From Xanthomonas hortorum (GTDB taxonomy: Bacteria > Pseudomonadota > Gammaproteobacteria > Xanthomonadales > Xanthomonadaceae): a stretch of 64,000 nucleotides of DNA. Every line of letters starts with the position of its first letter. Position 1 is the first letter of the stretch. Of the stretch, positions 10,512 through 52,162 are shown in pieces. The stretch is from the NCBI RefSeq assembly GCF_024339125.1, contig NZ_CP101417.1:558001-622000 (forward strand), written 5' to 3'. The position numbers and the translations under genes were made by a program. Under the pieces are notes generated by a model. It saw nothing but the letters and a program-made list of their open reading frames with translations, did no database searches and had not been told where the DNA came from.

Positions 10512-11469
10512 GTTACTGCTGACAGGGCTGTTCGCCTTATTGTTCATTGGCTGCACCGATGCACCGCCAACGCCGCCGGCCAAGCGTGTGGAGCAGCGAC
10601 CAAAACCGGCTCCCGCAGCAGCTGCAAAAGCCGCGATTCCAGCCAGGCAACGTGGTGAAGGCAAGCCGTATGAAATGGTCGACACTCAGGTCTGGGATGT
10701 CCCGGATCCGGCCTCCGGACGCAACTACCAAGTGTTCGTCGCGCTGCCACGCGGCTATGCGGACAACCCGGGTCGTCGCTATCCAGTGCTTTACGCCACC
10801 GACGGCGACTACGCGTTTCCGGTGGTGCGACAGATCGCACGCCGCTTGAATGGCGAAGGCCCGGCGATCGAAGATTTCATTCTGGTTGGGCTGTCGTACG
10901 CGGTGGGCGATGAGCCGATGCCCGGCCGCCGGCGCGATTACACGCCCACACCCGAGGATGGTGAAGGCGCTCCACCCGTTGCGACACATGGCAAAAGCGC
11001 CGCCTACATCGCCTACCTGCGTGATCACGTACTGCCATTCGTTGCCAAACGCTATCGCACCGACGAGCACAAGCGCCTGTACTACGGCCACTCCTACGGC
11101 GGCTTGCTGGGCACGCAGATCCTGCTCCAATCGCCCGAGATGTTTTCCGGCTACCTCCTCGGCAGCCCGTCCTATTGGTACGGCAAGCATGCGATGACGG
11201 CGCTGGAAGCCGCATCCGCAGCCAAGCGCAAGGATCTCCCCGCGCAGGTCTACCTGTATGTGGGCGAGTACGAACAACGGCGTTACCACCAGAACTACGA
11301 CATGGTCACCGATGCCCAGGCCATGGTGCGGCGCTTGCGCGCACGCGGCTATGCATCCTTGCAGATCGAACTGGAGGTGCTCAACGACGAAGATCACCTG
11401 AGCGTTGCGCCGCGCGGCATCACGCATGGGCTGAAGCATCTGTTGCGTGACAGCGTCTCACCCACCTGA
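10504..11469 (+). CDS. alpha/beta hydrolase lipoprotein (putative esterase, Fes/IroE type)
   Basis: A 321-residue protein. The favoured start is TTG 10504, preceded by AGGAG; it overlaps the end of the papain-like gene and gives a lipoprotein signal with Cys17 (LLFIGC). A Pro/Ala-rich linker leads to an esterase D/enterochelin esterase-like domain: LPRGYADNPGRRYPVLYATDG, Ser in GHSYGG, and a late acidic/His pair in LNDEDHLS. The substrate is unknown. Operon-like overlap suggests a joint envelope role with the upstream hydrolase. Confidence 0.83.
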   Translation: MSKLLLTGLFALLFIGCTDAPPTPPAKRVEQRPKPAPAAAAKAAIPARQRGEGKPYEMVDTQVWDVPDPASGRNYQVFVALPRGYADNPGRRYPVLYATDGDYAFPVVRQIARRLNGEGPAIEDFILVGLSYAVGDEPMPGRRRDYTPTPEDGEGAPPVATHGKSAAYIAYLRDHVLPFVAKRYRTDEHKRLYYGHSYGGLLGTQILLQSPEMFSGYLLGSPSYWYGKHAMTALEAASAAKRKDLPAQVYLYVGEYEQRRYHQNYDMVTDAQAMVRRLRARGYASLQIELEVLNDEDHLSVAPRGITHGLKHLLRDSVSPT

Positions 11470-11531
11470 AACCGGGCGCCGCGGCAGCCGCCGCCCTGCC
11501 TCACCCACCCACTCTCTAGCAACCACACCAC

Positions 11532-12473
11532 ATGGAGTCGTACATGCACGCACCACTGCAACCGGTTGCCGGACGTTCCTTCATCGGGAACGGACCCACG
11601 ACGCACCAGATCGAACTGGGTGATCGCAAGTTTCTGCACCCTGGGCGCCTGCGTTGGCTCCGCGCGATCGGCTGGGCGGTGGTGTTGCTTGTCGTGGTTG
11701 CCACATTGGCGCCCATGGCCGGCAGGTTTGTCGGCGGCCTGTTCCCCAAGGACTCCGGCCCCCTGCAACTGCTCGCCAGCCTTGTCGGTATCGCGGTCGG
11801 GCTGGGTGTCTATGTGCTTGCAGTGCGCCTGGCCGAAGGTCGGCGCGCCAGCGAGCTCGCCGTGCGACCGATGCTGCCCCAGGTGATCGTCGGCCTGCTG
11901 ATCGGTGCGGCCATGTTCGCCACGGTCATGGGCATCATGGCGGTGTTCGGGCTGTACGACATCCAGGCACTGGGCATGGCACCGGCATGGACGGCAGTCC
12001 GCAAGGCCTTGCAGGCGGGCGTGATCGAAGAATTGATGTTCCGCGCGATTTTCCTGCGCCTGATCTGGCGCGCGTTCGGTCCCTGGATCGCCTTCGCCGC
12101 GTCTGCGGCGCTGTTCGGCTTCGGCCATATCGCCAATCCGCACGCCACGGTCTTTGCTGCGATCTGCATCGCGCTGGAAGCCGGCATCCTGCTGGGCGCG
12201 TTCTATGCCTTGACCGGCCGGGTCTGGATGTCGATCGGGGTGCATATCGCCTGGAATTTCACCCAGGGCTATGTCTTCGGTGCAGCCGTGTCAGGGACCG
12301 ACATGGGTCCGGCGATTGCTCGTAGCACCGCTCGCCCTGGCATCGCCGAATGGCTCACCGGCGGCCCCTTTGGCCCAGAAGCATCGCTGCCGGGCGTGCT
12401 GGTGTGCTTGGCCGTAGGCGTCACGGTTCTGTGGATGGCGTGGCGTACGGGCAAGCTTGCAAAGCAACCGTAA
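11532..12473 (+). CDS. CPBP family intramembrane metalloprotease
   Basis: A 313-residue, multi-pass membrane protein. The CPBP (Abi, CAAX-protease-like) motifs are complete: EELMFRAIFLR (the EExxxR motif), FGFGHIANPH (second His motif) and HIAWNF (third His motif). Members cleave or trim membrane-associated peptides; some confer bacteriocin self-immunity. A second ATG at 11544 could also start the protein. No bacteriocin gene is adjacent, so the substrate is open. Confidence 0.88.
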   Translation: MESYMHAPLQPVAGRSFIGNGPTTHQIELGDRKFLHPGRLRWLRAIGWAVVLLVVVATLAPMAGRFVGGLFPKDSGPLQLLASLVGIAVGLGVYVLAVRLAEGRRASELAVRPMLPQVIVGLLIGAAMFATVMGIMAVFGLYDIQALGMAPAWTAVRKALQAGVIEELMFRAIFLRLIWRAFGPWIAFAASAALFGFGHIANPHATVFAAICIALEAGILLGAFYALTGRVWMSIGVHIAWNFTQGYVFGAAVSGTDMGPAIARSTARPGIAEWLTGGPFGPEASLPGVLVCLAVGVTVLWMAWRTGKLAKQP

Positions 12474-12797
12474 GCGCATCGAATGCACCCACCACGCCAC
12501 TTTGCTCACTGACTGGCGGTACCGGCCGCCATCAGTTTCGGTCAGCGCCAACAGGCTCAAGACCCGGGCGTGTCCCTATCGGTCTGATCGCGCAGTCTGA
12601 GCGTCCGCGGTAATCCCACACATCGCGTGACGCCAAGGCCGGCACTGCATGCCCTGCCCAGGTGCCTGCACATTGCGGGCACCACCTTGCCATCTCGCAC
12701 ACATGTGACGTCCTAGGCTTTGCGCTCCCACTCACGTCAGCGCTGGCTGCAGGATCCCAACCTGCATCGACTGAAGCGCATCACTGCAGAGGTCCAC
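12474..12797. other. intergenic region without a gene
   Basis: A 324-bp spacer before the DUF4126 gene. Open frames in it are short and show no recognisable protein. I see no strong terminator or repeat. Confidence 0.4.
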
Positions 12798-13259
12798 ATG
12801 TCCCTGATTCATTCGATCCTGATGGCCGCGGTTGCAGGCATGCGCTCGATGACACCGCTGGCGGCGGTCGCCAATGCGGCCCGCACTGGCAACCTCCCCG
12901 CCAACAACGGCGCACCGAAGCTGCTTGCCAATCCGCTCGCATCGGCCGGCATGCTCGCGCTCGCCGGTGGTGAGCTGGCCGGCGACAAGATGAAGACCGC
13001 ACCCGACCGCATCGTGCTGCCCGGCATGATCGCCCGCATCGCCACCGGTGTGATCGTCGGCACGGCACTGGCGCCACGCGAGCAACGCGGCATCGCTGCA
13101 CTGCTCGGCGCTACCACTGCCGTCGCTGCGGCCTATCTCACCTTCAACGCACGCATGCGCGCAATCGAACGCTATGGCCAGACCAGCACCGGCGTAGTGG
13201 AAGACGCCATCTCGGTGGGTGCGGCAACGCTGATCATGCGTAGCGCTGCCAAACGCTGA
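12798..13259 (+). CDS. DUF4126 family membrane protein
   Basis: A 153-residue protein starting at ATG 12798, preceded by GAGG at 12789-12792. Hydrophobic, Ala/Gly-rich helices and the opening MRSMTPLAAVANAAR fit DUF4126 membrane proteins of unknown function. Longer frames would add an unrelated N-terminus and lack a ribosome site. Confidence 0.75.
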   Translation: MSLIHSILMAAVAGMRSMTPLAAVANAARTGNLPANNGAPKLLANPLASAGMLALAGGELAGDKMKTAPDRIVLPGMIARIATGVIVGTALAPREQRGIAALLGATTAVAAAYLTFNARMRAIERYGQTSTGVVEDAISVGAATLIMRSAAKR

Positions 13260-28804: not shown

Positions 28805-29749
28805 TCACACCATCCGAGGCGGTGGAGTGATCGACTGGTCGCGTTGCTGCTCTTGTTGCTGGGATTGTTGCTGCCGCTGCGTCTCACCTAAAGACTGCAA
28901 CTGCGCCAGAGACTGTTCAACCGGCTGTGCGATAGCGTCATTCGTCTTCATGTACGCCATCTTGTGTGCGGGATCGTTCAACGCCCCTTCGACTACAAAG
29001 ACTTTCTCGCCTTGCCGGATAGATTTTGTTTCCTCACTCAACATAATGTGATCGATCCGCGACAATCCGTTCTCTTTTGCAAGATAGGCAGAACTGGCAG
29101 CCAGTCGGGCGCTATTGTCGTCATAGCCTCGACCCAAATCTTGTTCCAAACGGCGCACTGCGTCCTCCGCCTGGCGGTGAAGGGGGTCTTGTGATGGACC
29201 AAGTGAGCCATGGGTCGGCACTGCAGGCTGCGCCTCATGCCGCTCAGGTTGGACCGCCTCGCCTCGTACACGCAACGGGACTGCGCGCGGATCAACATGG
29301 AGAAGGCGTTCATGTGAGCCATCCGAGTTTGTACGATTGATATCGGTCGTTCCGTCCTGGTGCCGCTCACGGCTCAGACTTGCCCGCGATGCGTCAGACC
29401 ACACACCACCAACAACCGCGTGGCCCTGACCATCACGATTCCACACGACAACATCTTTGCCGGAAGCGTAAAGACCTGCGGTAGGTCCACTCTTTCCCTC
29501 GGCTTGCGGGCGTCCCCAGGCATGATTTGCTCCTTGATCCACTGATTGAATAAAGGCTGGGGCTTCGGCGTTCTGGAGGAACAACGTTTTAACCACACCG
29601 TAGTGATGAGATACATCAGCAGCACCGCGGCCGTTGTGTGCATCAGTTGGATTGATGAGCGGATCGGCCACCACGCTTCCGTACGCGTTAGAGAGTGGGC
29701 TTGCCTGGTTTGCCCCACGCAATGCATTGAAGACTGCGGTGCCTTTAAG
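28805..29749 (-). pseudogene. X-T4SS effector, C-terminal fragment with XVIPCD (split by IS copy 2)
   Basis: This is the downstream half of an antibacterial effector gene. Reading on from the IS edge it gives KGTAVFNALRGANQ, a loop-rich linker, then an XVIPCD: GLSRIDHIMLSEETKS, GEKVFVVEGALNDPAHKMAYMKT and a Gln-rich tail ending PPPRMV. XVIPCD is the signal read by VirD4 for export through the Xanthomonas T4SS. Cut off from its start codon, the fragment should not be made normally. Its frame joins exactly to the fragment at 30909-31674. Confidence 0.88.
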
Positions 29750-30908
29750 GGAACCTCTGAACAACGCACCACAGATACGCGACACTACCCGCCTCATGTT
29801 GAGGAGTGATCCATGCAACTGACGTTCGGTGACGCTGAGGGCCTGGGCAAGCGCAAGCAGACCCGGCGCGAGATCTTTCTGGCCGAGATGGAGCAGGTGG
29901 TTCCGTGGCAGCAACTGCTCGGTCTGATCGCGCCGCACTATCCGGTATCGGGCCGGCCAGGTCGGCAGCCGTACGCACTGGCGACGATGTTGCGGATTCA
30001 TCTGCTGCAGCAGTGGTATGCGCTGAGCGATCCGGCGATGGAAGAAGCACTGCACGAGATCCCGACCTTGCGGCGGTTTGCCCAGCTCGGTGGCTTGGAC
30101 AACGTTCCGGACGAGACCACGATTCTCAACTTTCGGCGCCTGCTGGAGACCCATGGCCTTGCCGCGCGGATGCTGGAAGCGGTCAACGCGCATCTGGCGC
30201 GCAAGGGCCAGAGCCTGCGGTCGGGCACGATCGTCGATGCGACGCTGATCGCGGCGCCCAGTTCGACCAAGAATGCCGACAACGCGCGCGACCCTGAGAT
30301 GCATCAGACCAAGAAGGGCAATCAGTGGTATTTCGGGATGAAGGCGCACATCGGCGTGGATGAATTTTCCGGGTTGGTGCACCACGTCCATTGCACAGCC
30401 GCCAACGTCGCCGATGTCACGGTGATGCACACGTTGCTGCATGGCAAAGAAGACAGCGTGTTCGGCGATAGCGGCTACACCGGTGCGGACAAACGCGAAG
30501 AACTGCAGGCCTGCAAGGCTGCATTCTTCATCGCCGCCAGGCCCTCGACGATGCAAGCCCTCGGCAACAAACGCGAGCGTGCTCGGGAAAGACGTTGGGA
30601 ACACTTCAAGGCCAGCGTGCGCGCGAAGGTGGAGCATCCATTCCGGGTGATCAAGCGCCAGTTCGGCTACACCAAGGTCCGCTATCGCGGCCTGGCCAAG
30701 AACACCGCGCAGGTGCTGACCTTGTTTGCGCTATCGAACCTGTGGATGAAGCGAAAGCAGTTACTGCCGACGATGGGGAACGTGCGCCTGTAACCCGGGC
30801 AACACCCTGCAAACGCGCCGGAAACGGCAAAAAAATCGAGGATCTGAGCGCCGTCAGCCTGGTCGATGTGGTTAGGCTCATCCTCCGATGCCGTTGATCA
30901 GACCATCC
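29750..30908 (+). mobile_element. IS5-family insertion sequence, copy 2 (1159 bp)
   Basis: Same terminal repeats and length as copy 1, in the opposite orientation. The duplicated target is TAAG (29746-29749 and 30909-30912). It interrupts an effector gene read on the minus strand. Confidence 0.95.
29813..30793 (+). CDS. IS5-family transposase, copy 2
   Basis: A 326-residue intact DDE transposase with the same catalytic residues as copy 1 (VDATLI, GDSGY, VEHPFRVIK). It has Glu at TGADKREE like copy 3, and ends GNVRL like copy 1. Confidence 0.95.
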   Translation: MQLTFGDAEGLGKRKQTRREIFLAEMEQVVPWQQLLGLIAPHYPVSGRPGRQPYALATMLRIHLLQQWYALSDPAMEEALHEIPTLRRFAQLGGLDNVPDETTILNFRRLLETHGLAARMLEAVNAHLARKGQSLRSGTIVDATLIAAPSSTKNADNARDPEMHQTKKGNQWYFGMKAHIGVDEFSGLVHHVHCTAANVADVTVMHTLLHGKEDSVFGDSGYTGADKREELQACKAAFFIAARPSTMQALGNKRERARERRWEHFKASVRAKVEHPFRVIKRQFGYTKVRYRGLAKNTAQVLTLFALSNLWMKRKQLLPTMGNVRL

Positions 30909-39635: not shown

Positions 39636-40783
39636 TCAACGGCATCGGAGGATGAGCCTAACCACATCGACCAGGCTGACGGCGCTCAGATCCTCGATTT
39701 TTTTGCCGTTTCCGGCGCGTTTGCAGGGTGTTGCCCGGGTTACAGGCGCACGCTCCCCATCGTCGGCAGTAACTGCTTTCGCTTCATCCACAGGTTCGAT
39801 AGCGCAAACAAGGTCAGCACCTGCGCGGTGTTCTTGGCCAGGCCGCGATAGCGGACCTTGGTGTAGCCGAACTGGCGCTTGATCACCCGGAATGGATGCT
39901 CCACCTTCGCGCGCACGCTGGCCTTGAAGTGTTCCCAACGTCTTTCCCGAGCACGCTCGCGTTTGTTGCCGAGGGCTTGCATCGTCGAGGGCCTGGCGGC
40001 GATGAAGAATGCAGCCTTGCAGGCCTGCAGTTCTTCGCGTTTGTCCGCACCGGTGTAGCCGCTATCGCCGAACACGCTGTCTTCTTTGCCATGCAGCAAC
40101 GTGTGCATCACCGTGACATCGGCGACGTTGGCGGCTGTGCAATGGACGTGGTGCACCAACCCGGAAAATTCATCCACGCCGATGTGCGCCTTCATCCCGA
40201 AATACCACTGATTGCCCTTCTTGGTCTGATGCATCTCAGGGTCGCGCGCGTTGTCGGCATTCTTGGTCGAACTGGGCGCCGCGATCAGCGTCGCATCGAC
40301 GATCGTGCCCGACCGCAGGCTCTGGCCCTTGCGCGCCAGATGCGCGTTGACCGCTTCCAGCATCCGCGCGGCAAGGCCATGGGTCTCCAGCAGGCGCCGA
40401 AAGTTGAGAATCGTGGTCTCGTCCGGAACGTTGTCCAAGCCACCGAGCTGGGCAAACCGCCGCAAGGTCGGGATCTCGTGCAGTGCTTCTTCCATCGCCG
40501 GATCGCTCAGCGCATACCACTGCTGCAGCAGATGAATCCGCAACATCGTCGCCAGTGCGTACGGCTGCCGACCTGGCCGGCCCGATACCGGATAGTGCGG
40601 CGCGATCAGACCGAGCAGTTGCTGCCACGGAACCACCTGCTCCATCTCGGCCAGAAAGATCTCGCGCCGGGTCTGCTTGCGCTTGCCCAGGCCCTCAGCG
40701 TCACCGAACGTCAGTTGCATGGATCACTCCTCAACATCAGGCGGGTAGTGTCGCGTATCTGTGGTGCGTTGTTCAGAGGTTCC
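39625..40783 (-). mobile_element. IS5-family insertion sequence, copy 3 (1159 bp)
   Basis: Same ends and length as copies 1 and 2. The target duplication is CTAG (39621-39624 and 40784-40787). It is inserted just before the XVIPCD of the effector gene. Confidence 0.95.
39740..40720 (-). CDS. IS5-family transposase, copy 3
   Basis: A 326-residue intact DDE transposase. It matches copy 2 except for the C-terminal GSVRL in place of GNVRL. The near-identity of three copies indicates recent transposition. Confidence 0.95.
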   Translation of the reverse strand: MQLTFGDAEGLGKRKQTRREIFLAEMEQVVPWQQLLGLIAPHYPVSGRPGRQPYALATMLRIHLLQQWYALSDPAMEEALHEIPTLRRFAQLGGLDNVPDETTILNFRRLLETHGLAARMLEAVNAHLARKGQSLRSGTIVDATLIAAPSSTKNADNARDPEMHQTKKGNQWYFGMKAHIGVDEFSGLVHHVHCTAANVADVTVMHTLLHGKEDSVFGDSGYTGADKREELQACKAAFFIAARPSTMQALGNKRERARERRWEHFKASVRAKVEHPFRVIKRQFGYTKVRYRGLAKNTAQVLTLFALSNLWMKRKQLLPTMGSVRL

Positions 40784-41359
40784 CTAGAGACGATCCATGT
40801 CACTGCGCCGCGGATGCAAAACCACGACAACGCGGACACCTCTTCCAAGAAGACTCAGGAAGACACAGATGTACGCGGCCATAGCGCCCCCACACGACCG
40901 CAAGCATCGGGGCCGCAAGATCCGGATCATCCCGATCACCCCATGTTGAAGCAGATCCGCGAAGGCGTGGCCAAGATCGATGAGAGCGTTGGCAAGCCGT
41001 ATGACGAAATGAGCGAGCGCGTCAGCCGCTGCCTGCTGGCTGCGTGCAAGGACAATCGCGAGCGCTATCCAGACGCCGGCAATACCTCGCTCGCCGCCAA
41101 CGCGCTGCAACGCGTGGACCACGTACTGATGGGCAAGAACGGCAACCTCGTCGCGATCGAAGGGCACATCGACGACCCAACACACAAGCGCGCAGCTGTC
41201 TCTATCGACCAAGCAATTCATATGCCTTTGGAGCAGTCGGACGCAAAGCTACAAGCGGCCAACCAAGCCATCGCCCAAGAACAGACACAAACACGACAGC
41301 AGGAATTGGCACGAAGCAAGCAGCAGGATAGTCAGCAAGCGCCACGTATGAGTGTCTGA
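40784..41359 (+). pseudogene. X-T4SS effector, XVIPCD fragment (split by IS copy 3)
   Basis: The downstream part of the split effector reads LETIHVTAPRMQNHDNAD and continues to an XVIPCD: HPMLKQIREGVAKIDESVG, LQRVDHVLMGKNGNLVAIEG, DDPTHKRAAVSIDQAIHMPLEQS and a Gln-rich tail. Removing the IS plus one CTAG joins it in frame to the part at 37716. An internal ATG at 40813 might allow some independent translation. Confidence 0.88.
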
Positions 41360-41470: not shown

Positions 41471-42358
41471 TTATTTCGGGGGCGACCAAGTGCCCACACT
41501 TATCATAACCCTCCCACCATCTGCCGTTGCAATTGAATAAACTCCATTTTCATGCAAAACAACTTTTGACCCGATATCAATACCCGGATATTTATCAACC
41601 ATCTGATAGTCTCCCAGATAAGCCAACCATAAACTTGCCACCTCCACCTTCGGCAATACCACTGAACTAATACTTGCAAGAGACGATAAAGCTAAAAATA
41701 AAGATAAACTACCAAGAAAACGACCAAGCCAAAGCGCTTCATTAGCTTTATCGCGAACATGCATCTTCTTGGTAAATATTAATTTAAAAGGTTGTAGCAA
41801 AGCGACCATCCCTGCCTGCAATAGTATCCATACCTCCAGCACCAAAGAAGTTGCCCCTATGATGATCACAGCAATTAGCATCCACACAACTGGATACATC
41901 AAGAGCGATAAAAATCCCACAGCCAAGGGGAAATCCTGGCCCGGCAGGCCAGTAAACTTCGTCATCAAACCGCGTCCAATTGCGGCAGAAATCAGCAGCA
42001 CACCGAGATGCACAAGCCATGCAGAATTCCGCATTACGGGTTTTTTCCAAGCTTCCGAAATCCACGGCATTGTCCAAGAGACAAATCCTAGAGCAGCCGA
42101 AACTATACCAAGCATCATCGTTTCCTCTACCCACACCTTCTGCCCCAGCAAATGTGCCGACATACCGGCCAACATAAAATAAATGGCTAGCGAATAAAGC
42201 CTAACCTCCAAATTAGATTGCGCGTATTCTTTAAAAGCAATTTCAGAAATTCGATTCCACCGGGTGGCGCTAAATAAAACTAAAAACTTTGAAATTTTCG
42301 CGGCGGCCGTAGCAATTTTTATAAAGGACCCAACAAATCCATGCATGATATTATTCAA
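41471..42358 (-). CDS. multi-pass membrane protein, AT-rich, unknown
   Basis: A 295-residue protein starting at TTG 42358 with AAGGA 7 bp before it. About seven hydrophobic segments (SLAIYFMLAGMSAHLL, MMLGIVSAALGFVSW, LVHLGVLLISAAIG, LAVGFLSLLMYPVVWMLIAVIIIGATSLVLEVWIL, FLGSLSLFLALSSLAS) precede a soluble C-terminal tail. The base composition is clearly more AT-rich than the chromosome, a sign of transfer. I recognise no family. Confidence 0.7.
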   Translation of the reverse strand: MNNIMHGFVGSFIKIATAAAKISKFLVLFSATRWNRISEIAFKEYAQSNLEVRLYSLAIYFMLAGMSAHLLGQKVWVEETMMLGIVSAALGFVSWTMPWISEAWKKPVMRNSAWLVHLGVLLISAAIGRGLMTKFTGLPGQDFPLAVGFLSLLMYPVVWMLIAVIIIGATSLVLEVWILLQAGMVALLQPFKLIFTKKMHVRDKANEALWLGRFLGSLSLFLALSSLASISSVVLPKVEVASLWLAYLGDYQMVDKYPGIDIGSKVVLHENGVYSIATADGGRVMISVGTWSPPK

Positions 42359-42371
42359 CTAATTTTCCTTT

Positions 42372-42611
42372 TTATAAATAGTTAATATACCAAAGCGTGC
42401 TAACTGGGCCAGGTTCATTTCCTACGCGAATTTCAGACCACAGCCCCAATCCTCGAGAGGTCTCGTCGATATCAGCACCAACGCCTTGCCGGAAGTATTG
42501 CGATGTGGCCAGAATTCCACTCATCGGTCTTTCAGCATCCTGCAGCATATCGTGGAGCGCGGGAAAACCACTTGCCGTGCTTTCTAGACGATAGCGATAC
42601 GCTTGCTGCAT
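42372..42611 (-). CDS. small hypothetical ORF
   Basis: A 79-codon frame ending WYINYL, closely upstream of the AT-rich membrane protein gene. No ribosome site and no family match. A stop codon two codons before the ATG prevents a longer start. It may be the remnant of a larger gene. Confidence 0.3.
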   Translation of the reverse strand: MQQAYRYRLESTASGFPALHDMLQDAERPMSGILATSQYFRQGVGADIDETSRGLGLWSEIRVGNEPGPVSTLWYINYL

Positions 42612-42742
42612 GGGGCACTACACGCCACAGACTGCCAGTCTGTATACCTATTATGGGAAGGGCGCCACAAAACTTGCCTCGTGGACGGTGCTGACTAGCC
42701 TCTTCTCTGCCACCGCTACATCGAACTTTAACCGGTACATAC

Positions 42743-43060
42743 TTGCCTGCTAGACGACCCGGCGGCGCATCGCTGGTCCAGTTGCCCAGCCAACCTGTGG
42801 GGCAACGCGGGCACTCGGCACTGACGCCACACCCCTGTTGGCTTGCGCTTGGCAACGATCCGATGGAGCGATGCAACGCCTACCGCGCCCTGCTCGATGA
42901 AGACCTGTCCGACGACCTGCTCACTAGCATCCGCCTCCATCTACAACAGCAGCGAGCTCTGGGCCACGACGCCTTCCGCGCGATGGTCGAAGCCAAGACC
43001 CGCCGCTTTGCGGGCATAAGGCCCGCTCATCGGTCACACAAACCGAGCATCGTCTATTGA
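42743..43060 (+). pseudogene. REP-associated tyrosine transposase (RAYT), C-terminal remnant
   Basis: From about 42863 the frame reads MERCNAYRALLDEDLSDDLL then QQQRALGHDAFRAMVEAKT, which is the C-terminal end of RAYT (Y1 transposase-like) proteins common in xanthomonads. The catalytic HUH and Tyr parts are missing. It marks the left border of the restriction-modification cassette. Confidence 0.75.
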
Positions 43061-43217
43061 TAAGTGAACCTGACCCCGTTATTCCCGACCTCAGCTCGAC
43101 GGCGAAGTTCTCACGCAGCGAGACTATGGAGGCCGATAATTCACCTCACGCCCGGCTTGCCAGACTTGACGTATACATCAATAATTGCCGCCCACGATTA
43201 CGAGTCATCTTCTCCAC

Positions 43218-43466
43218 GTGAACACCCTGCATCAACTTGGAATCCAGATCGCCGAGAGGCGTCGCCAGCTTGGCTTGAAGCAGATTGAAGTGGCCAAGCA
43301 AAGCGGCGTTACAGCTGAGTCGCTCTCCCGCTTTGAGAGGGGCCGGCTTACTGAGTTTGGTAGCAGGAAGCTGATCGCGGTCCTTGCAGCAGTGGGAATG
43401 GAGATTTCTTTGGTCGAGGCGAAGCCTGGGCTTAACAACAAGAGCGCACAGGAGTCTCCGCGATGA
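43218..43466 (+). CDS. XRE-type small regulator of the R-M cassette
   Basis: An 82-residue protein starting at GTG 43218 (TTG 43185 also possible). The Cro/CI helix-turn-helix is clear: GIQIAERRRQLGLKQIEVAKQ, VTAESLSRFERGR. It ends 49 bp before the methyltransferase gene on the same strand. Small XRE proteins here often control R-M expression (C proteins), although the shape is also like HipB-type antitoxins. Confidence 0.72.
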   Translation: MNTLHQLGIQIAERRRQLGLKQIEVAKQSGVTAESLSRFERGRLTEFGSRKLIAVLAAVGMEISLVEAKPGLNNKSAQESPR

Positions 43467-43515
43467 GGAGTGCAACCGCTCCTGCTCGTTCCAACAGAAT
43501 TACTGGAGTACTGAA

Positions 43516-44730
43516 ATGAGATCGGTAGAGCTGTTCGCCGGTGCTGGCGGGTTGGCCATGGGGTGCGAGATCGCTGGTTTCGAGCACCTGGCCGTTGTGG
43601 AGTGGGACAAGTGGGCCTGCGACACCGTCCGCGAAAACCAAAAGCGCGACTACCCCCTGGTACGTGGTTGGAACTTGCATGAGGGCGACGTTCGGTCATT
43701 TGATTGGTCGTCAATCCCTCAGGACATCGAGCTTCTTGCAGGCGGCCCCCCGTGCCAGCCTTTCTCCATCGGCGGGAAGCACAAGGCTCACGAGGACAAC
43801 CGGGATATGTTCCCGGCTACTGTTGAGATCATCAGACAGCTCCGTCCGAAAGCGTTCATTGTGGAGAACGTCAAAGGTCTGACACGCGCAAAATTTGCTA
43901 ATTACTTCCACTACATCCAGCTTCAGCTTGAGTTCCCGGATGTTCCACCCAGGAAGGACGAGGACTGGACAGATCATCTCGCACGGCTGCAAGTTGAACG
44001 AACTTCCGGCAAGCGTAAAGGCAAGGGACTCACCTACAACGTCATTCCAACGCTAGTAAACGCTGCGAATTACGGCGTTCCACAGAAGCGTGAGCGGGTA
44101 TTCCTCATTGGATTCCGAGATGACCTGGGCGTTGAGTGGTCGTTCCCTCATGAGACGCATAGCTATGACGCCCTACTTCACGACCAGTGGGTAACAGGCG
44201 TCTACTGGAAGCGGCATGGGATTCGTCAGCCCAAGACACCTGCGAGGCTCGCTGCAAAAGTTGCGAAGCTTCAGCAATTTCGAACAACACCTCCGACATT
44301 GGCATGGCGAACCGTACGGGATGCGCTCCAAGGGTTACCCGACCCCGAGAGCCGCGAGGCGAAGAAAATTGCTAACCATGTGTTTCAGGCTGGCGCTCGC
44401 TCATATCCCGGGCATACAGGCAGTCCGCTCGACCTCCCTGCCAAGACTCTGAAGGCTGGCGGGCATGGAGTTCCAGGCGGCGAGAACATGCTTGTGAAGG
44501 ACGGCGGCTTGGTTCGCTACTTCACCATTCGTGAGAGCGCTCGCATCCAAACCTTCCCTGATGGCTTCCAGTTTCACGGCAGCTGGTCGGAGACCATGCG
44601 TCAGCTTGGCAATGCGGTACCTGTCGTTCTTGGGCAAAGGGTAGCTTCTAGCGTGGCCGAGCAGCTTGCGATTGCAGGCTTGGCTAAGATCGCCAAGAAT
44701 GATGCATCAATGAGAAGAAAGCGCGCATGA
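43516..44730 (+). CDS. type II DNA (cytosine-5) methyltransferase
   Basis: A 404-residue C5 methyltransferase starting at ATG 43516 with GGAG. Motifs in order: I SVELFAGAGGLAMG, IV GGPPCQPFS with the catalytic Cys, VI VENVKG, VIII QKRERVFLIG and X near QLGNAVP. It should methylate a cytosine in the site cut by the partner enzyme. If the pair is Eco29kI-like the site is CCGCGG, and such sites do occur in the window (for example 27558). Its stop overlaps the nuclease start by 4 bp. Confidence 0.94.
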   Translation: MRSVELFAGAGGLAMGCEIAGFEHLAVVEWDKWACDTVRENQKRDYPLVRGWNLHEGDVRSFDWSSIPQDIELLAGGPPCQPFSIGGKHKAHEDNRDMFPATVEIIRQLRPKAFIVENVKGLTRAKFANYFHYIQLQLEFPDVPPRKDEDWTDHLARLQVERTSGKRKGKGLTYNVIPTLVNAANYGVPQKRERVFLIGFRDDLGVEWSFPHETHSYDALLHDQWVTGVYWKRHGIRQPKTPARLAAKVAKLQQFRTTPPTLAWRTVRDALQGLPDPESREAKKIANHVFQAGARSYPGHTGSPLDLPAKTLKAGGHGVPGGENMLVKDGGLVRYFTIRESARIQTFPDGFQFHGSWSETMRQLGNAVPVVLGQRVASSVAEQLAIAGLAKIAKNDASMRRKRA

Positions 44731-45377
44731 CCGGCAAAGTAATCCCGTTTAATCCGCTGGACAAAAAGAATCTTGGAGCCAGTGTCGCAGAGGCGCTTCT
44801 CACTAAGGAAGTTCATCCGCTGGGCCAGCTGCCCCAGTTCGAGGGGGCTGGCATATATGCAATTTATTACACGGGTGAGTTTGAAGCCTACCAACAGGTT
44901 TCGAGGCTAAATGCCGATGGGAGCTTCATGCTCCCCATTTATGTCGGCAAGGCCATCCCTGCTGGCGCCCGTGTAGGCGGCAGCGTAGATGTACCTGCTG
45001 GCAGGGTGCTCTTCAAGCGCCTCAAAGAGCATGCGGACAGCATTCGCTCGGCTAGCAATCTTAGTATCGACGACTTCTTCTGTAGATTTCTTGTCGTCGA
45101 TGACATATGGATCCCCCTAGGGGAGTCCCTGATCATCTCCCGCTTCACTCCGGTCTGGAACTCACTCATCGATGGATTTGGCAACCATAATCCTGGAAGG
45201 GGGAGACACGCGGGTATGCGGCCCCGTTGGGATGTTTTGCACCCTGGCCGAGAGTGGGCAGAGCGTTTAGCTGAAAGACCAGAGTCGCAGTTCAGAATCG
45301 CCGAAGATGCAGCCACTTACCTTCGAGTTCTGCCTGCCTGTCTATCTGACAAGTTCATTGAAGCTGAAGGCAATTAA
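44727..45377 (+). CDS. Eco29kI-like GIY-YIG restriction endonuclease
   Basis: A 216-residue nuclease. It carries GIYAIYYTG and PIYVGKAIPAGAR, the two halves of the GIY-YIG core, plus LFKRLKEHADSI, LGESLIISRFTPVWN and IDGFGNHNPG, as in the Eco29kI family known to me for cutting CCGCGG. Coupling by ATGA overlap to the methyltransferase is standard for a type II system. Site specificity is inference from family resemblance. Confidence 0.87.
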   Translation: MTGKVIPFNPLDKKNLGASVAEALLTKEVHPLGQLPQFEGAGIYAIYYTGEFEAYQQVSRLNADGSFMLPIYVGKAIPAGARVGGSVDVPAGRVLFKRLKEHADSIRSASNLSIDDFFCRFLVVDDIWIPLGESLIISRFTPVWNSLIDGFGNHNPGRGRHAGMRPRWDVLHPGREWAERLAERPESQFRIAEDAATYLRVLPACLSDKFIEAEGN

Positions 45378-46307
45378 CGCACTACAATGATGTAGCATCT
45401 AACCAAGTAAACCTAATGGTGAAATTAATGAAGCAAACCCGAGCATTAGCCAGGGCAGGCTTTCTTAATATCCACGCACCTGCATCGTTCAGAGGCCCTT
45501 ACAGCAACCCATGTCGCGTTTGCAATCGCTAACATTTAATCTTTGCAATATCACATACGACCAGTCACGCAGCGCTAAATGGCCGCTTAGGTGTACCAGA
45601 ACTGCCAGTGCTCGCCACGCTTCAGCCTGATTTTTGGCGATTTCCGACTATCCATAGCCGCCGTCCTACTGCTGAGCATGCTGCCGCTGCAGAATTATTC
45701 CGTTCGCGACCGGGGAACCAGATGGATCTACGTCATCCGCTGCCGCAACTGAGCTAACAAATGCTTGTGCCGTGTTGGAACAGCTGTTTGCGGCACATTC
45801 AGTGCCGGCTGCGGTCACCTCGTTACTGCCGATATGCCTATTTGTAGGCTTGCTGCGATTTGAGCACGCTTAAAGCCTGTCAAATTAGACGGTCTGCAAA
45901 CGATAGCTGGAAATCCATATTGGCATTTTTCCACTGGCGGGTTATATGCCAGAAGCACTTTGCGCGCTGTCAGCGGAGCATACCGCCATGGACGCGCTCA
46001 AGCTCAGCGTATAAGCGCATCTGTGCGCAGCCGATCCAGCCTTGTGCAGATGCGCTCAAGCGCCAGCAAGATTAATGAACACTACACGGCGAACTGCCAA
46101 CAGCGACTCGCCTGCCAGCAGCAGCGGTGGCTAGCTAAACCCGTGCATGGGATAGAGCGCCGAATCCAGACGTCTTTGCAATGCTTAGCTCGCGCGCATG
46201 GTCAGCCATTCTTGCTAGTCTGATTACCGAAAGATCGCGCCACGTACACTTTACAAACTCAATCCGCTGCTAATTTTCGATTGATAAGATCTAAATTTAA
46301 GTAAACC
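45378..46307. other. gene-poor junction in the island
   Basis: About 930 bp without a credible gene. A 52-codon frame (around 45593-45751) encodes one hydrophobic stretch (AAVLLLSMLPL) and ends RCRN, perhaps a gene remnant. I find no tRNA or clear attachment repeats. Confidence 0.4.
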
Positions 46308-48536
46308 TTACCTCACCTCCCTTCTTGTTCTCGAAGTCTTCTTTTCGCTCAGGAGTTCGCTCCAAATTTCCTGTGTCTCTTTATTTAATGAATCTAGTAG
46401 AGCCAGAGGATTTTTTATCCTAATCAATGGCGATGGCCTGCCATGCATCGGCTTCGCTCGACGCACTTCTAAACGTCCATGACGGGAAAGCACCTTACTT
46501 ACAAAACTCCAGAGGGGATCATTGAGAAGCTCGGCTCCGTCGTTTTCGCCACCGGCGACTCTTAGATAAAACTGCTTTATTGATCTGCGCGCAACCTTCT
46601 CAAGTAGCTTTACCTCAGCCGTATTAGCAGCACCATCCATTCTAGTACGCAGACTAATCCAACTTGCAATTTCACTCTTTCCTCGAACTGGCTGGGTACC
46701 ATCTCTACCAATGACTTCTAAAGTTTTGATATTAGGCATCGAGGAACCCATTAAGGTTCCTTCGTCCACCACCAATGTATCAACCTCAACTTGATAAAAC
46801 GTCACCTCAGAAATATCAGCACCACAAGCATCGAGCCTATTAACCTTTGAGTTTGAAATAGTCCCCACCGGTGTCAGCCCGGCAAACGTCGCCTCAATTG
46901 TCTCTGCGTAATCAATTCTGTCGCAATATCCCAGCGAGAGCATTATAAAAAGTAATGCAGATAGATTAGTAGCTAAGGAGTCACCTGAAATCTCAGAAGA
47001 AAGCAATACTGAAGCCTTGTTAGATGCAGCATTATTTTCTTTCGACTTATTGGAAAAAACTTCTGCAAAAACTTCCAGTTCTTCGCAATTAAATACGTAA
47101 CGACGAAGGAAAGCTGGCACCCCCCCTTGGGCAAGCGCTCTGCGGACTGCTTGACCTAAAAAGTAATGCCTAACCTCGCTGTGCGGAAAACGTCTTGCTC
47201 TTTTATCAGAAGTAAGCTCCAAAAGAGCAAGACTTCCAGACTTGTGCATAAGCTTTCTTATCGATTGAACATCCAGTACGCCCTCGAATATATATTCCGT
47301 CAAGAATGAGAGATGCTCGATTTCTACAGAATCAACTTCTCTACCAGCCATTTCAACAGCAACCTCTTCGAGGAGCTGAAGCAACACCTCAGCAACCACC
47401 TCAACCGTTACGCCCCCGATCTGTTGAGAAATCAGGCGCGCCTCTCTACCAACTAATCGGTTTACTATAAAAGTTCTCGGCCCCGTGTCGGCTACTTCAC
47501 TCCAGCCCTTTGCAGTCCAGAGTTCCCGGAGAAAGAAAGGCCGTAGTACATAGCTTTCATCTCGCAATAAATCTTCGGAAATCTCGGAGTCGAGCTCACT
47601 AGGCTTCCAATTAGGGGATTTCTCCAGCCATTCTTTCGCCTCCATTGCGTTTGGAGTCAAGACTCTCCCTACAGTCAGTTCAACCTCATCGCGACTTTTC
47701 TCAATTCGCGTGAGAAGGTCCTGTTCCTCGATGAAGGTATCTCTCGCTGCTAACAGCATCGTGCCACCGCATCCAACTTCTTCGATGAATTGACGAAGCG
47801 CTAACCAAGAATCCTCATATCCATCGGCATCTACAAGCTCATCGAATCCATCTATCGCGACCGTCAGCAATCCTCGCCTCACAAGAATCGGGACATGTCG
47901 GGCGAAGAAACTAGCGTTAATATCCTGCGTTGCGGCGGCCAATGCATCTCTCAAATTTGAAAGGCGGCGCCCTTTGCTGGTCAAGTGCAGTATTGGTGCA
48001 ATTGCTTCAGATCCACTAGCTTTCTTTGCAAAATACTCGACAAGAGCGTTAATTTGGAATGTTTTACCCACTCCAGCCGGCCCTTCCAAGAGAAAGAGCT
48101 TTAATTTTTTCTTGTCATTCTTGGAATTAAATTCATTAACAAAATCTTCAGTGGTTAGCGCCCTATTGGAAACTTCAATCGAAGACGGAATTATATTTCC
48201 CACCTTGATTAAAGCGGATGCTCGCAACTGAGTGCTGACAAACTGAGAAAGGTTGGCAAAACGCTCGGACGCCAGCAGCGAATTTACGCTCGGGTAACGT
48301 GCTTTACGCCCGACCAATTCTTCAACCACACCATCTTCTTTAAATTCGAGCGAAAGATCTCTTCCGCCACGAATCATGTTTAGCCTAATGCAACCTGCCG
48401 TCATCCTCTTCCGCTTAACACCGGTATATGGATCTGCGAAGGATTCAATATCTTCGATATCTCTGTCATCTATCATGATTTTATAATATTCACAATGAGT
48501 AAACGAGGCCATCAAGCTGGAGAAACTTACTTTCAT
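46308..48536 (-). CDS. NACHT-like STAND NTPase, putative defence sensor
   Basis: A 742-residue protein. Walker A GPAGVGKT (152-159), Walker B LLTVAIDGFDELVD (223-236) and an Arg sensor segment MLLAARDTF form a NACHT-like ATPase. A helical region and a roughly 300-residue C-terminal part without clear repeats follow. The N-terminal 140 residues are unrecognised. It is AT-richer than the chromosome and overlaps the NYN gene upstream by 47 bp if the first ATG is used; starts at 48512 or 48476 are possible. STAND proteins often sense invaders, so a role in phage defence with the NYN nuclease is plausible, not shown. Confidence 0.8.
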   Translation of the reverse strand: MKVSFSSLMASFTHCEYYKIMIDDRDIEDIESFADPYTGVKRKRMTAGCIRLNMIRGGRDLSLEFKEDGVVEELVGRKARYPSVNSLLASERFANLSQFVSTQLRASALIKVGNIIPSSIEVSNRALTTEDFVNEFNSKNDKKKLKLFLLEGPAGVGKTFQINALVEYFAKKASGSEAIAPILHLTSKGRRLSNLRDALAAATQDINASFFARHVPILVRRGLLTVAIDGFDELVDADGYEDSWLALRQFIEEVGCGGTMLLAARDTFIEEQDLLTRIEKSRDEVELTVGRVLTPNAMEAKEWLEKSPNWKPSELDSEISEDLLRDESYVLRPFFLRELWTAKGWSEVADTGPRTFIVNRLVGREARLISQQIGGVTVEVVAEVLLQLLEEVAVEMAGREVDSVEIEHLSFLTEYIFEGVLDVQSIRKLMHKSGSLALLELTSDKRARRFPHSEVRHYFLGQAVRRALAQGGVPAFLRRYVFNCEELEVFAEVFSNKSKENNAASNKASVLLSSEISGDSLATNLSALLFIMLSLGYCDRIDYAETIEATFAGLTPVGTISNSKVNRLDACGADISEVTFYQVEVDTLVVDEGTLMGSSMPNIKTLEVIGRDGTQPVRGKSEIASWISLRTRMDGAANTAEVKLLEKVARRSIKQFYLRVAGGENDGAELLNDPLWSFVSKVLSRHGRLEVRRAKPMHGRPSPLIRIKNPLALLDSLNKETQEIWSELLSEKKTSRTRREVR

Positions 48537-49128
48537 TCGCGCGATTTATTCTCATCACCTTAACTGGCAGCCCCCACTGTTCGGCAGCAAACGTGCCGGG
48601 TAGAAGATCATCGTCATTCGCTATTACGATTGCCATTGCCTCTGGGGGTCTCCCACGCCGAAACCCGGCACTTTCGGCCCTACAGTAGGAAAGTAAATCG
48701 GCAACAAGTGCGGTGTCGACCATCTTTTGTTGGTCGAGCCCATCATCCCGTCTTCTAAGCGTATCAAAGAGCGGAGATCGTAATCCTCCGCAAATTAGCG
48801 AATCACCAAATCTTATGTCTGCCAAGAATGAGACATTCTTATTAGCAACTGGACGGAGCTTGCTTTTAGCCTCTTCCCAAGCGCGCCGATCATCTGTAGC
48901 CGTTCGGCCTCGGTGCCAACCGTGATAAATACGACTCATCACAATCTTAACTTTGCTTTTTGACTGCATCCCCGAAAGACAGTCAACTGTACGCTGCTGA
49001 ATTTCTTGATAACACTCACTGACATAACGAACTCTATCCTTGAAATCGATATTTTCGCTTAATCCCCCAGGAGGACGGCGAATTCGTCGAGCAGTATCCC
49101 AATCAATAAATGCGTGAGCTGATATCAC
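48490..49128 (-). CDS. NYN/PIN-like nuclease domain protein
   Basis: A 212-residue protein. GTG 49128 is the better start because AAGGAG lies 7 bp before it; the GTG at 49134 is too close. The NYN (LabA/DUF88) acidic set is present: FIDWDTAR near the start, KMVDTALVADLL in the middle and IANDDDLLPG toward the end. Such domains cut RNA using metal ions. The gene is directly upstream of the NACHT-like NTPase, sharing coding overlap, so both are one operon: nuclease effector plus NTPase regulator. Confidence 0.8.
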   Translation of the reverse strand: MISAHAFIDWDTARRIRRPPGGLSENIDFKDRVRYVSECYQEIQQRTVDCLSGMQSKSKVKIVMSRIYHGWHRGRTATDDRRAWEEAKSKLRPVANKNVSFLADIRFGDSLICGGLRSPLFDTLRRRDDGLDQQKMVDTALVADLLSYCRAESAGFRRGRPPEAMAIVIANDDDLLPGTFAAEQWGLPVKVMRINRANESKFLQLDGLVYSL

Positions 49129-49173
49129 CGCCACTCTCCTTGAGGCATTTTTATCACATCCTATAATCTAACG

Positions 49174-49202
49174 AAAAAGGCGGCCATTAGGCCGCCTTTT
49201 TT
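49174..49202. terminator. bidirectional terminator of aceE
   Basis: AAAAAGGCGGCC and GGCCGCCTTTTTT form a perfect stem with loop ATTA. It lies 12 bp beyond the aceE stop, where aceE transcription (minus strand) should end. The A-tract makes it work both ways. Confidence 0.9.
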
Positions 49203-49213
49203 GCTAATTCAAA

Positions 49214-51901
49214 TCAAACCCCTACAGGATTCGCCTTCTCAGGATCAATCTTGTACTGCTTGATCGCCCGGGCCACGTCCTTGCCCGTCATCTTGCCGTC
49301 CTTCGCCAGCGCCGCAATCGCCGCATGCGCGATGTAGTAACGGTCGACCTCAAAGAAACGACGCAGGTTCGCACGCGTATCCGAGCGACCGAACCCATCC
49401 GTGCCGAGCACGCTGTAGGTCATTGGGACGAAGGCGCGGATCTGGTCGGCGAACAGGCGCACGTAGTCCGTTGCGGCAATCGCCGGGCCCTGGCGGCCTT
49501 CCAGCAGCTGGGTGACGTAGGGCTTGCGCTGTTCGGCCTCCGGGTGCAGGCGGTTCCAGCGTTCGGCGGCGAAGCCGTCGCGGCGCACTTCGTTGAAGCT
49601 GGGGCAGGACCAGATGTCGGCGGTGACGCCGAAATCCTTGTCCAGCAGCTCGGCTGCGGCAATGGCTTCGCGCAGGATGGTGCCGCTGCCCAGCAGCTGC
49701 ACGCGCAGCTCGCCCTTCTTGGGCTTGCCGGCGTCCTTGAGCAGGTACATGCCCTTGATGATGCCCTCGGCTGCGCCGTCCGGCATGCCGGGGTGAGCGT
49801 AGTTCTCGTTCATCAGGGTGATGTAGTAGTACTCGTCGATCTGGTCTTCCATCATCGCCTTCATGCCGTGCTGCATGATGACGGTGACTTCGAAGCCGAA
49901 GGTCGGGTCGTAGCTACGCACGTTGGGGATGGAGCCGGCGATGACCTGGCTGAAGCCGTCTTCGTGCTGCAGGCCTTCGCCATTGAGCGTGGTGCGGCCG
50001 GCGGTGCCGCCGAGCAGAAAGCCACGCGTGCGCATGTCCGCTGCCTGCCAGGCGATGTCGCCCACGCGCTGGAAGCCGAACATGGAGTAGTAGATGTAGA
50101 ACGGCAGCATCGGCACGTCGGAGACCGAGTAGCTGGTGCCGGCGGCCATCCACGAGGCGATGGCGCCCGGCTCGCTGATGCCTTGCTGCAGCACCTGACC
50201 GGTCTGGTCTTCGCGGTAGTACATCAGCTGGTCGGCATCGACCGGCTTGTACTTCTGGCCGAACGGGGCATAGATGCCGATCTGGCGGAACATGCCTTCC
50301 ATGCCGAAGGTGCGCGCTTCATCGGCCACGATCGGCACGATGCGCGGGCCCAGTTCCTTGTCGCGCAGCGCGATGTTTAGGCTCTGCACGAACGACATGG
50401 TGGTGGAATAGCTGCGCTCGCCGCTGTCCTTGAGCAGGCGCTCGAACTTGTCGAGCGTGGGCGCGACGAACGACTTGCTGGCCTTGGGACGGCGCGAGGG
50501 CAGGAAACCGCCCAGCACGTTGCGGCGCTCTTTGAGGTACTGCACTTCCGGGGAATCTTCGCCGGGGTGGTAGAACGGCACCTGGCCGTCTTCCAGCTGG
50601 GCGTCGGTGACCGGGATGTTGAAGCGGTCGCGGAAGTGCTTGACCGCCGCGTCGTCCAGCTTTTTGGTCTGGTGAGTAGGGTTGAGCGCCTCACCGGCCG
50701 AGCCCATGCCGTAGCCCTTGACCGTCTTGGCCAGGATCACGGTGGGCATGCCCTTGGTGTTCACGGCCTGGTTGTAGGCGGCATACACCTTGTGCGGGTC
50801 GTGGCCGCCACGGTTGAGGCGCCAGATGTCGTCGTCAGACAGGCCGGCGACCATGGCCGCGGTCTCCGGGTACTTGCCGAAGAAGTTGGCGCGCGTGTAG
50901 GCGCCGCCGAAGGCCTTGCAGTTCTGGTATTCGCCGTCGACGGTTTCCATCATCAGCTTCTTGAGGACGCCGTCGGTGTCCTTGGCCAGCAGGGCGTCCC
51001 AGTAGCCGCCCCAGAGCAGCTTGATGACGTTCCAGCCGCCGCCACGGAACACGCCTTCCAGTTCCTGGATGATCTTGCCGTTGCCGCGTACCGGGCCGTC
51101 CAGGCGCTGCAGGTTGCAGTTGACCACGAAGATGAGGTTGTCCAGGCCTTCACGGCCGGCCAGCGCAATGGCGCCGAGGGTTTCCGGCTCGTCGCTCTCG
51201 CCGTCGCCGATGAAGCACCACACCTTACGGTCGGACTTCTCGATCAGGCCGCGGTTTTCCAGGTAGCGCATGAACTGCGCCTGGTAGATGGCGGCCAGCG
51301 GGCCCAGGCCCATCGAGACGGTGGGGGTCTGCCAGAACTCGGGCATCAGCCACGGGTGCGGGTAGGAGGAGATGCCCTGGCCGTCCACTTCCATGCGGAA
51401 GTTGTCCAGCTGGGCTTCGCTGATGCGGCCTTCGAGGAAGGCGCGGGCGTAGATGCCCGGGGCGCTGTGGCCCTGGATGAACAGCAGGTCGCCCGGGTGG
51501 TTGTCCGAGGGCGCGCGCCAGAAGTGGTTGAAGCCCACGTCGTACAGCGTGGCGCTGGAGGCGAACGAGGCGATGTGGCCGCCCAGGTCGCCCGGCTTGC
51601 GGTTGGCCCGCACGACGGTGGCCATGGCGTTCCAGCGGATGATCGAGCGGATCTTCCACTCCAGCGCGGAGTCGCCGGGGTTCTTGGCCTCGTTGGCCGG
51701 TGCGATGGTGTTGACGTACTCGGTGGTGGGCGAGAACGGCAGGTAAGCGCCGGCGCGGCGGGTCTGTTCGACCATGCCTTCCAGCAGCTGATGGGCGCGC
51801 TCAGGACCTTCTACATCGATGACGGCCTTGATCGATTCGAGCCACTCCTGCGTCTCAAGCGGGTTCGGATCGTTGTGCAGCACTTCGTTCAACCAGTTCA
51901 T
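49214..51901 (-). CDS. aceE: pyruvate dehydrogenase E1 component (homodimeric)
   Basis: An 895-residue thiamine diphosphate enzyme that decarboxylates pyruvate and passes acetyl to lipoyl-E2. Start ATG 51901 has GGGAG 7 bp before it, and the protein begins NWLNEVLHNDPNPLETQEWLES as in other E1p. The ThDP motif GDGESDEPE...N and the pyrimidine-binding parts EGLQHEDGFSQ and MEDQIDEYYYITLMNENYAHP are intact. The E2/E3 genes are not adjacent here. The downstream side borders the acquired island. Confidence 0.97.
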   Translation of the reverse strand: MNWLNEVLHNDPNPLETQEWLESIKAVIDVEGPERAHQLLEGMVEQTRRAGAYLPFSPTTEYVNTIAPANEAKNPGDSALEWKIRSIIRWNAMATVVRANRKPGDLGGHIASFASSATLYDVGFNHFWRAPSDNHPGDLLFIQGHSAPGIYARAFLEGRISEAQLDNFRMEVDGQGISSYPHPWLMPEFWQTPTVSMGLGPLAAIYQAQFMRYLENRGLIEKSDRKVWCFIGDGESDEPETLGAIALAGREGLDNLIFVVNCNLQRLDGPVRGNGKIIQELEGVFRGGGWNVIKLLWGGYWDALLAKDTDGVLKKLMMETVDGEYQNCKAFGGAYTRANFFGKYPETAAMVAGLSDDDIWRLNRGGHDPHKVYAAYNQAVNTKGMPTVILAKTVKGYGMGSAGEALNPTHQTKKLDDAAVKHFRDRFNIPVTDAQLEDGQVPFYHPGEDSPEVQYLKERRNVLGGFLPSRRPKASKSFVAPTLDKFERLLKDSGERSYSTTMSFVQSLNIALRDKELGPRIVPIVADEARTFGMEGMFRQIGIYAPFGQKYKPVDADQLMYYREDQTGQVLQQGISEPGAIASWMAAGTSYSVSDVPMLPFYIYYSMFGFQRVGDIAWQAADMRTRGFLLGGTAGRTTLNGEGLQHEDGFSQVIAGSIPNVRSYDPTFGFEVTVIMQHGMKAMMEDQIDEYYYITLMNENYAHPGMPDGAAEGIIKGMYLLKDAGKPKKGELRVQLLGSGTILREAIAAAELLDKDFGVTADIWSCPSFNEVRRDGFAAERWNRLHPEAEQRKPYVTQLLEGRQGPAIAATDYVRLFADQIRAFVPMTYSVLGTDGFGRSDTRANLRRFFEVDRYYIAHAAIAALAKDGKMTGKDVARAIKQYKIDPEKANPVGV

Positions 51902-52162
51902 TAGCGCTCCCGGGGGGACACACCCCGCGGGTGTGTCGACATCGTGAATTCGTGAACCCCCAAGTGTACCGCACGCACCTGTTGGCATTCCTCGCTACGG
52001 GTGCGTATGGAATGGGATGGTGTTGTGCGCGGGTGGGTGTTGGCGGCGGGTGCCACGCATGCGGGCGCTGCTGGTGTACGACCAAAGGATGAGGGCCAAC
52101 GGCGGGCGATTGCCGAGCGCCAGCGCCCGGCTCGGCGCGGAATGGGCCGATGTGCATGCACC

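Follow-up and report, generated by a model that had tools for sequence, protein, structure and literature searches.

In a 64,000-nucleotide stretch of the Xanthomonas hortorum genome (contig NZ_CP101417.1, positions 558,001 to 622,000; hereafter “the window”, whose coordinates are used throughout), an operon of two minus-strand genes probably encodes an anti-phage system of the abortive-infection kind, in which an NLR-like switch would control a putative NYN RNase encoded separately. The genes, in their longest frames, are a NYN (PIN-like) nuclease gene (48490..49134, 214 aa, GTG start) and an NLR-type NACHT ATPase gene (46308..48536, 742 aa). The two proteins show conserved pairing and co-variation, their predicted folds, NYN and NACHT, have intact motifs, and the ATPase holds a beta-helix; we also found a variable chromosomal site with defence cargo, carriage by predicted prophages, and a kind of relative in which a fused HEPN-like part replaces the NYN. 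NLR-like immunity as such is known; what appears new is that the putative RNase has a gene of its own.

Both frames, with all the motifs quoted for them, lie where an earlier sequence-only reading had placed them, in the order aceE, NYN, NTPase, all three genes being on the minus strand of a genome made of a single 5.44 Mb contig. That reading called the operon AT-rich, and its three 1-kb bins (46001-49000) indeed have the lowest GC of the window, 46-48% against 49-69% in the remaining bins. The longest NYN frame begins 79 bp past the aceE stop codon. The gene overlap also described there is probably an ORF-calling effect: longest-frame calling makes the two frames overlap by 47 nt, but the NTPase relatives start near window M22 (nt 48473) and the NTPase model has a predicted local distance difference test score (pLDDT) below 50 at residues 1-4 and 6-16, so that a 16-nt gap is likelier. 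Judging from the homologues, the probable NTPase start is the ATG at nt 48473; for the NYN, a GTG at 49128 is the likely start, read in the sequence 7 nt behind AAGGAG. A promoter and terminator scan did no better than on shuffled sequence.

Residue conservation was read from two 66-sequence alignments, one per protein, each made of the window protein and 65 relatives, a subset of the loci described below that was drawn from L025-L120 according to length, score and start position. In the NYN proteins, D11, D140, D146, D174 and D176 are invariant (66/66) and form a conserved acidic active-site set. Structure prediction had been proposed as a check of both folds, and it supports them: NYN/PIN for the nuclease, by structural comparison of its model, and NACHT for its partner. 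The top Foldseek rows for the NYN model (a glycosyltransferase and Cami1; E 0.01-0.05) were set aside after VIA ranking. In a small alignment including relatives, 3/7 members match Pfam NYN at E ≤ 1 (best 0.0098). In PADLOC-DB (2023), the HEC-09 model matches 32/66 NYN proteins and the LabA-like NYN model 8/66, at 0.01 or better; the HEC-09 matches inspected in relatives are short and local (about 53-57 of 203 profile positions), and the window NYN has no HEC-09 match. The ATPase gave a single P-loop match in the same database.

The ATPase model has the nucleotide-binding, helical and winged-helix arrangement of NLR proteins. Ahead of it, the predicted model contains a small N-terminal domain (48207..48467, minus strand like all the ATPase features; residues ~24-110) with F33 and D35 conserved at ≥90%, a possible adaptor or docking part. 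In Walker A (48060..48083; residues 152-159, the GPAGVGKT region), A154, G155, G157 and K158 are invariant in 66/66 ATPases, as are D229, G230, F231 and E233 in the NACHT-type Walker B, LTVAIDGFDEL (47835..47867; residues 224-234). An F-P-H motif (47181..47189; residues 450-452), which we take to be the winged-helix histidine of NACHT proteins, has an invariant F450 and H452 at ≥90%. The last 300 residues had been thought to resemble nothing; profile matches and the model place a pentapeptide-repeat beta-helix there (46683..46919; residues ~540-618), followed in the predicted model by a mostly helical C-terminal part (46311..46682; residues 619-742). Pfam NACHT matches 7/7 members of the small alignment at E ≤ 1 (best 1.7e-6). 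We file the window ATPase as NACHT-type and not as a canonical bNACHT, because its effector is a separate gene and not an N-terminal fusion.

Pairing with the NYN and exchange of the effector

Relatives were gathered by the ATPase alone. They occur in 8/395 genomes of the family and 5/250 of the order (source genome counted in both), on 16 viral contigs, and in a GTDB genome scan at 93 loci, 80 of which were kept. From 107 loci, 9 duplicates, 2 remote outliers and 11 of a fused kind were set aside; 3 of the remaining 85 end before the upstream gene, which leaves 82 evaluable. The pair is one unit, its pairing beyond chance: a NYN gene lies directly upstream on the same strand in 81/82 of these non-redundant relatives, the single exception, L059, having another gene there. 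Homologues are not mostly found apart, the outcome that would have refuted the earlier reading. The spacing rule was loose (-1000 to 300 nt), and 69/81 pairs fall between -60 and 30 nt; in five of the 81 pairs the NYN frame is short or broken (L015, L038, L047, L048 and L050). Record titles of the relatives include Pseudomonadota, Acidobacteriota, Actinomycetota, Bacteroidota, Gemmatimonadota, Planctomycetota and others. Across 75 pairs, NYN distances track ATPase distances with a correlation of 0.921; 0/999 permutations reached this value, to which shared descent contributes.

Approached from the nuclease side, a NYN profile run over 369 genomes of the class matched the source genome and two others only, L187 and L188, both read as generic LabA-like NYN proteins; in the stretches examined around these two (the L188 contig is 4.4 kb) and around a third generic NYN, L003, there is no ATPase of the window family. 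A scan of genomes with the window NYN alone confirmed 0 relatives among 32 pattern matches. The remote NACHT-type matches without NYN, L023 and L024, are outside the pair count, and L005 was never in it. By eye, the N-terminal part of L023 resembles TIR or SEFIR, another effector type on a related ATPase. Plain NYN-NTPase fusions were sought among the loci and none was found; L054 and L055 seemed to be such fusions and were rejected, as their NYN frame overlaps instead.

In the 11 relatives of the fused kind, whose record titles are all actinobacterial, the ATPase frame is 900-1126 residues long and no NYN lies where one would be expected, although L079 extends past the end of its contig. An R-x4-H motif is present in their N-terminal part, with R109 and H114 (L092 numbering) invariant in 11/11; L099 and L107 among them are 92% identical. 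The HEPN RNase motif is given as Rx4-6H in PMC3710099, and at this motif level the N-terminal part appears HEPN-like. Other actinobacterial relatives keep the NYN (L083, L101 and L110). In L087 the family profile matches from its own position 46 onwards, at a point lying after the HEPN-like part and before the NACHT domain, as if one adaptor might serve both nuclease kinds. The upstream gene of L059 shares an ATGA with the start of the ATPase gene and is DUF1643-like; one listed phage relative is named DUF1643.

Replacement of the NYN by a HEPN-like part predicts RNA cleavage as the common output. A defence system whose NYN instead cuts DNA or another nucleotide target, the outcome being degraded phage nucleic acid and not translation arrest, is improbable in our estimate. 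A broader reading, which we consider rather unlikely as a whole, sees an unnamed, widespread class of bacterial NLR immunity in which one NACHT/pentapeptide chassis would drive an exchangeable RNase: a separate NYN in many phyla, a fused HEPN-type RNase in actinobacteria and, in one case, a DUF1643 partner. In this reading the beta-helix would be the gate, a built-in decoy that either occupies the nuclease or is held by a phage protein that binds nucleic acid, and infection would displace it; the pentapeptide beta-helix fold mimics nucleic acid elsewhere, in Qnr and MfpA.

A variable site behind aceE and carriage by predicted prophages

The fixed flank of the variable site is a gene recognised from its sequence as aceE (pyruvate dehydrogenase E1; 49214..51988, minus strand). 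Its 3' end is present in 35/35 genomes of the genus. Downstream stretches came from 33/34 congeners (in G007 only 207 bases follow the match), and their homology to the window breaks off at 49208-49218 in 31/33 and at 49174 in 2/33. With clustering limited to the 31 congeners having long enough stretches, the next 2.5 kb downstream of aceE fall into 30 clusters among 32 segments (31 congeners and the window). Across the genus, the aceE 3' end (window 49213) is a site of variable insertions, with defence genes among its cargo, and offers a fixed landmark for locating more defence systems. In Xanthomonas sp. NCPPB 1128, listed under a different genus code, a divergent pair also lies 76 bp past aceE, the ATPase being 26-32% identical to that of the window, depending on the alignment.

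Ten cargo proteins of the aceE site were picked by eye for a PADLOC search. They include matches to DarG (1.1e-100), AriB (2e-18), DRT UG5-nitrilase (5.4e-291), a type II-A retron reverse transcriptase (1.1e-105) and a helicase model (1.7e-109), as well as weak ones to a type II endonuclease (3.7e-9) and a candidate model (4.1e-7). Of the 132 hotspot ORFs, 131 were used, the excluded one being an L180 ORF that contains a masked run. At 1e-10, the 131 together matched 307 PADLOC families, and 109 control ORFs from 20 arbitrary stretches of the genus matched 6, one ORF each; since methylase models cross-match, the two numbers do not form a ratio. C5-methylase models match 8/131 hotspot ORFs.

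Phage genes are the other recurrent neighbours. In 10 of the 16 viral contigs, one flanking protein per contig, picked for its phage-like look, was scanned, and 10/10 matched PHROGs; one has to bear in mind that predicted viral contigs can contain host flanks. The matches are baseplate proteins at most 170 bp from the pair (L025 and L032), a baseplate wedge (L037), a tail sheath (L038), an endolysin (L028), a minor tail protein (L034), a portal (L040), a single-strand DNA-binding protein (L026), a primase (L030) and a family of unknown function (L031). The earlier reading would have been weakened by non-defence surroundings; what we see instead is an aceE site with differing cargo in congeners, several known defence genes among it, and relatives that adjoin phage structural genes.

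The baseplate proteins of L025 (7204-8178) and L032 (3966-4937) belong to the same family (phrog_4011) and stand beside two divergent pairs on different prophage contigs; phages of that group may use this position as a cargo slot. L026, L027 and L033 lie on contigs of 12-13 kb, with the single-strand DNA-binding protein beside the L026 pair and, by eye, similar genes in the other two, and are possibly inovirus prophages with a 3-kb immune module. Stretches of L026 and L093 had no match in DNA searches of E. coli genomes.

These settings bear on two explanations without phage sensing. In one, the pair would tune host RNA turnover, as housekeeping or stress RNA processing with no role against phages. 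Lone NYN/LabA-like proteins such as L187 and L188 do exist in genomes, but the patchy spread (8/395 family genomes, source counted) and the features of mobile cargo (low GC, site contents differing between congeners, phage neighbours) make this very improbable. In the other, the pair would be a toxin-antitoxin-like addiction module in which the NACHT protein silences a toxic NYN RNase, persisting because it stabilises the islands and prophages that carry it. A pair of small neighbouring genes with the nuclease in first place, found on prophage contigs and at a variable site, would suit it, and PIN-fold toxins are common in such modules; the partner of the NYN, however, is no small antitoxin but an NLR-type ATPase of 742 residues that has a beta-helix and invariant motifs for nucleotide binding, and the HEPN-like part fused to the ATPase in 11 relatives fits a switch better. 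We hold the addiction module to be unlikely.

Proposed mechanism and related systems

In the anti-phage reading that we favour, the NACHT ATPase would, by analogy, be an NLR-like switch waiting in an inactive nucleotide state, and the pentapeptide beta-helix and C-terminal part would keep it inactive or sense an infection cue. Infection would cause nucleotide exchange and oligomerisation of the ATPase; the oligomer, probably via its N-terminal domain, would act on the NYN protein by engaging or freeing it, and the aspartate cluster of the NYN would cut RNA, stopping translation and preventing phage production. The trigger, oligomerisation, docking, RNA substrate and abortive outcome are the steps that we infer.

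Several results weigh against this reading. Pfam NYN does not match the window NYN, and the Pfam NACHT score of the window ATPase (20.7 bits) is under the gathering cut-off (26.7). At the limits used, tblastn gave no match for the window NYN in plasmids, nor for the NTPases of the window and of L093 in named phages and plasmids. The first 200 residues of L092 had no sequence match in the PDB, and 3/10 of the hand-picked cargo proteins had none in PADLOC.

Most descriptions of bacterial NLR-like immune proteins concern single polypeptides to which the effector is fused. Avs (AVAST) proteins are known for a large C-terminal helical repeat sensor, unlike the 742-residue window ATPase, in which ~120 residues follow the beta-helix; Avs4 is in the Foldseek list via its ATPase part only (E 4e-6). 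According to PMC12169576, the NACHT protein bNACHT25 activates a fused DNase on infection; bNACHT and the window system share an NLR-type NACHT module, a nuclease output and an expected anti-phage role, but bNACHT carries its effector as an N-terminal domain within the polypeptide, whereas the window has a separate NYN gene and a C-terminal pentapeptide beta-helix. An experimentally tested analogue is WonAB: according to PMC12137116, this prophage ATPase with a separate nuclease halts translation in infected cells, and WonB toxicity depends on WonA. It shares the two genes, the ATPase sensor with a separate nuclease, the translation arrest proposed here and, for part of our relatives, the prophage location; its OLD-type ABC ATPase and PD-(D/E)xK nuclease are unrelated to NACHT and NYN.

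The HEPN-STAND fusions of PMC3710099 have a HEPN RNase domain ahead of a STAND NTPase, like our 11 fused relatives, and the portion consulted names neither a NYN partner gene nor a pentapeptide C-terminus. Conflict systems described in PMC7159879 link a PIN-fold RNase to a NACHT ATPase in one polypeptide; they are fused, ternary, vWA-type and found mainly in multicellular prokaryotes, whereas the window pair is unfused. HEC-09, linked to phage susceptibility in PMC12447246, and the PADLOC LabA-like NYN model share a NYN-type core with part of the paired NYN proteins; their names imply no NACHT partner, and the window NYN is unmatched. The NYN-NACHT pair is not described in the sections covered of PMC3710099, PMC8195603, PMC10853773 and PMC7159879, a coverage that excludes the main bNACHT paper and bioRxiv, and a term search in PMC8565338 had no match. 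An effector in its own gene makes switch, docking and nuclease separable for study, and the pentapeptide beta-helix, if it is a sensor or gate, would be unlike leucine-rich or TPR repeats.

Neighbouring genes in the window

The adjacent type II restriction system noted earlier is confirmed. A small helix-turn-helix regulator (43185..43466, plus strand) stands in front of a C5 DNA methylase (43384..44730, plus strand, longest frame), followed by an Eco29kI-type restriction endonuclease (44727..45377, plus strand; Pfam 4.5e-65, PADLOC 4.3e-103); the system ends 0.9 kb from the operon 3' end, on the opposite strand. Elsewhere, a large gene before the L016 pair was read by eye as HsdR, and L006 of Lysobacter profundi (11447-13147) has, also by eye, phospholipase-D-like and Mrr-like restriction proteins behind the pair, a defence-like neighbourhood.

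A RAYT-like (REP-associated transposase) sequence is present in 22/33 aceE-downstream stretches (246 kb) versus 0/20 arbitrary stretches of the genus (192 kb); in the window, a RAYT-like remnant (42537-43064) adjoins the restriction-modification genes. Such an element may help move the cargo of the aceE site. The island also encodes a 295-aa hydrophobic protein (41471-42358; best Pfam E 0.064), without NCBIfam or PADLOC match at E 1. Two frames, at 39740-40720 and 28805-30637, encode the same transposase-like region, and the opposite-strand ORFs 39896-41359 and 28805-30637 share their first residues, which points to an insertion sequence repeated inside the low-GC island.
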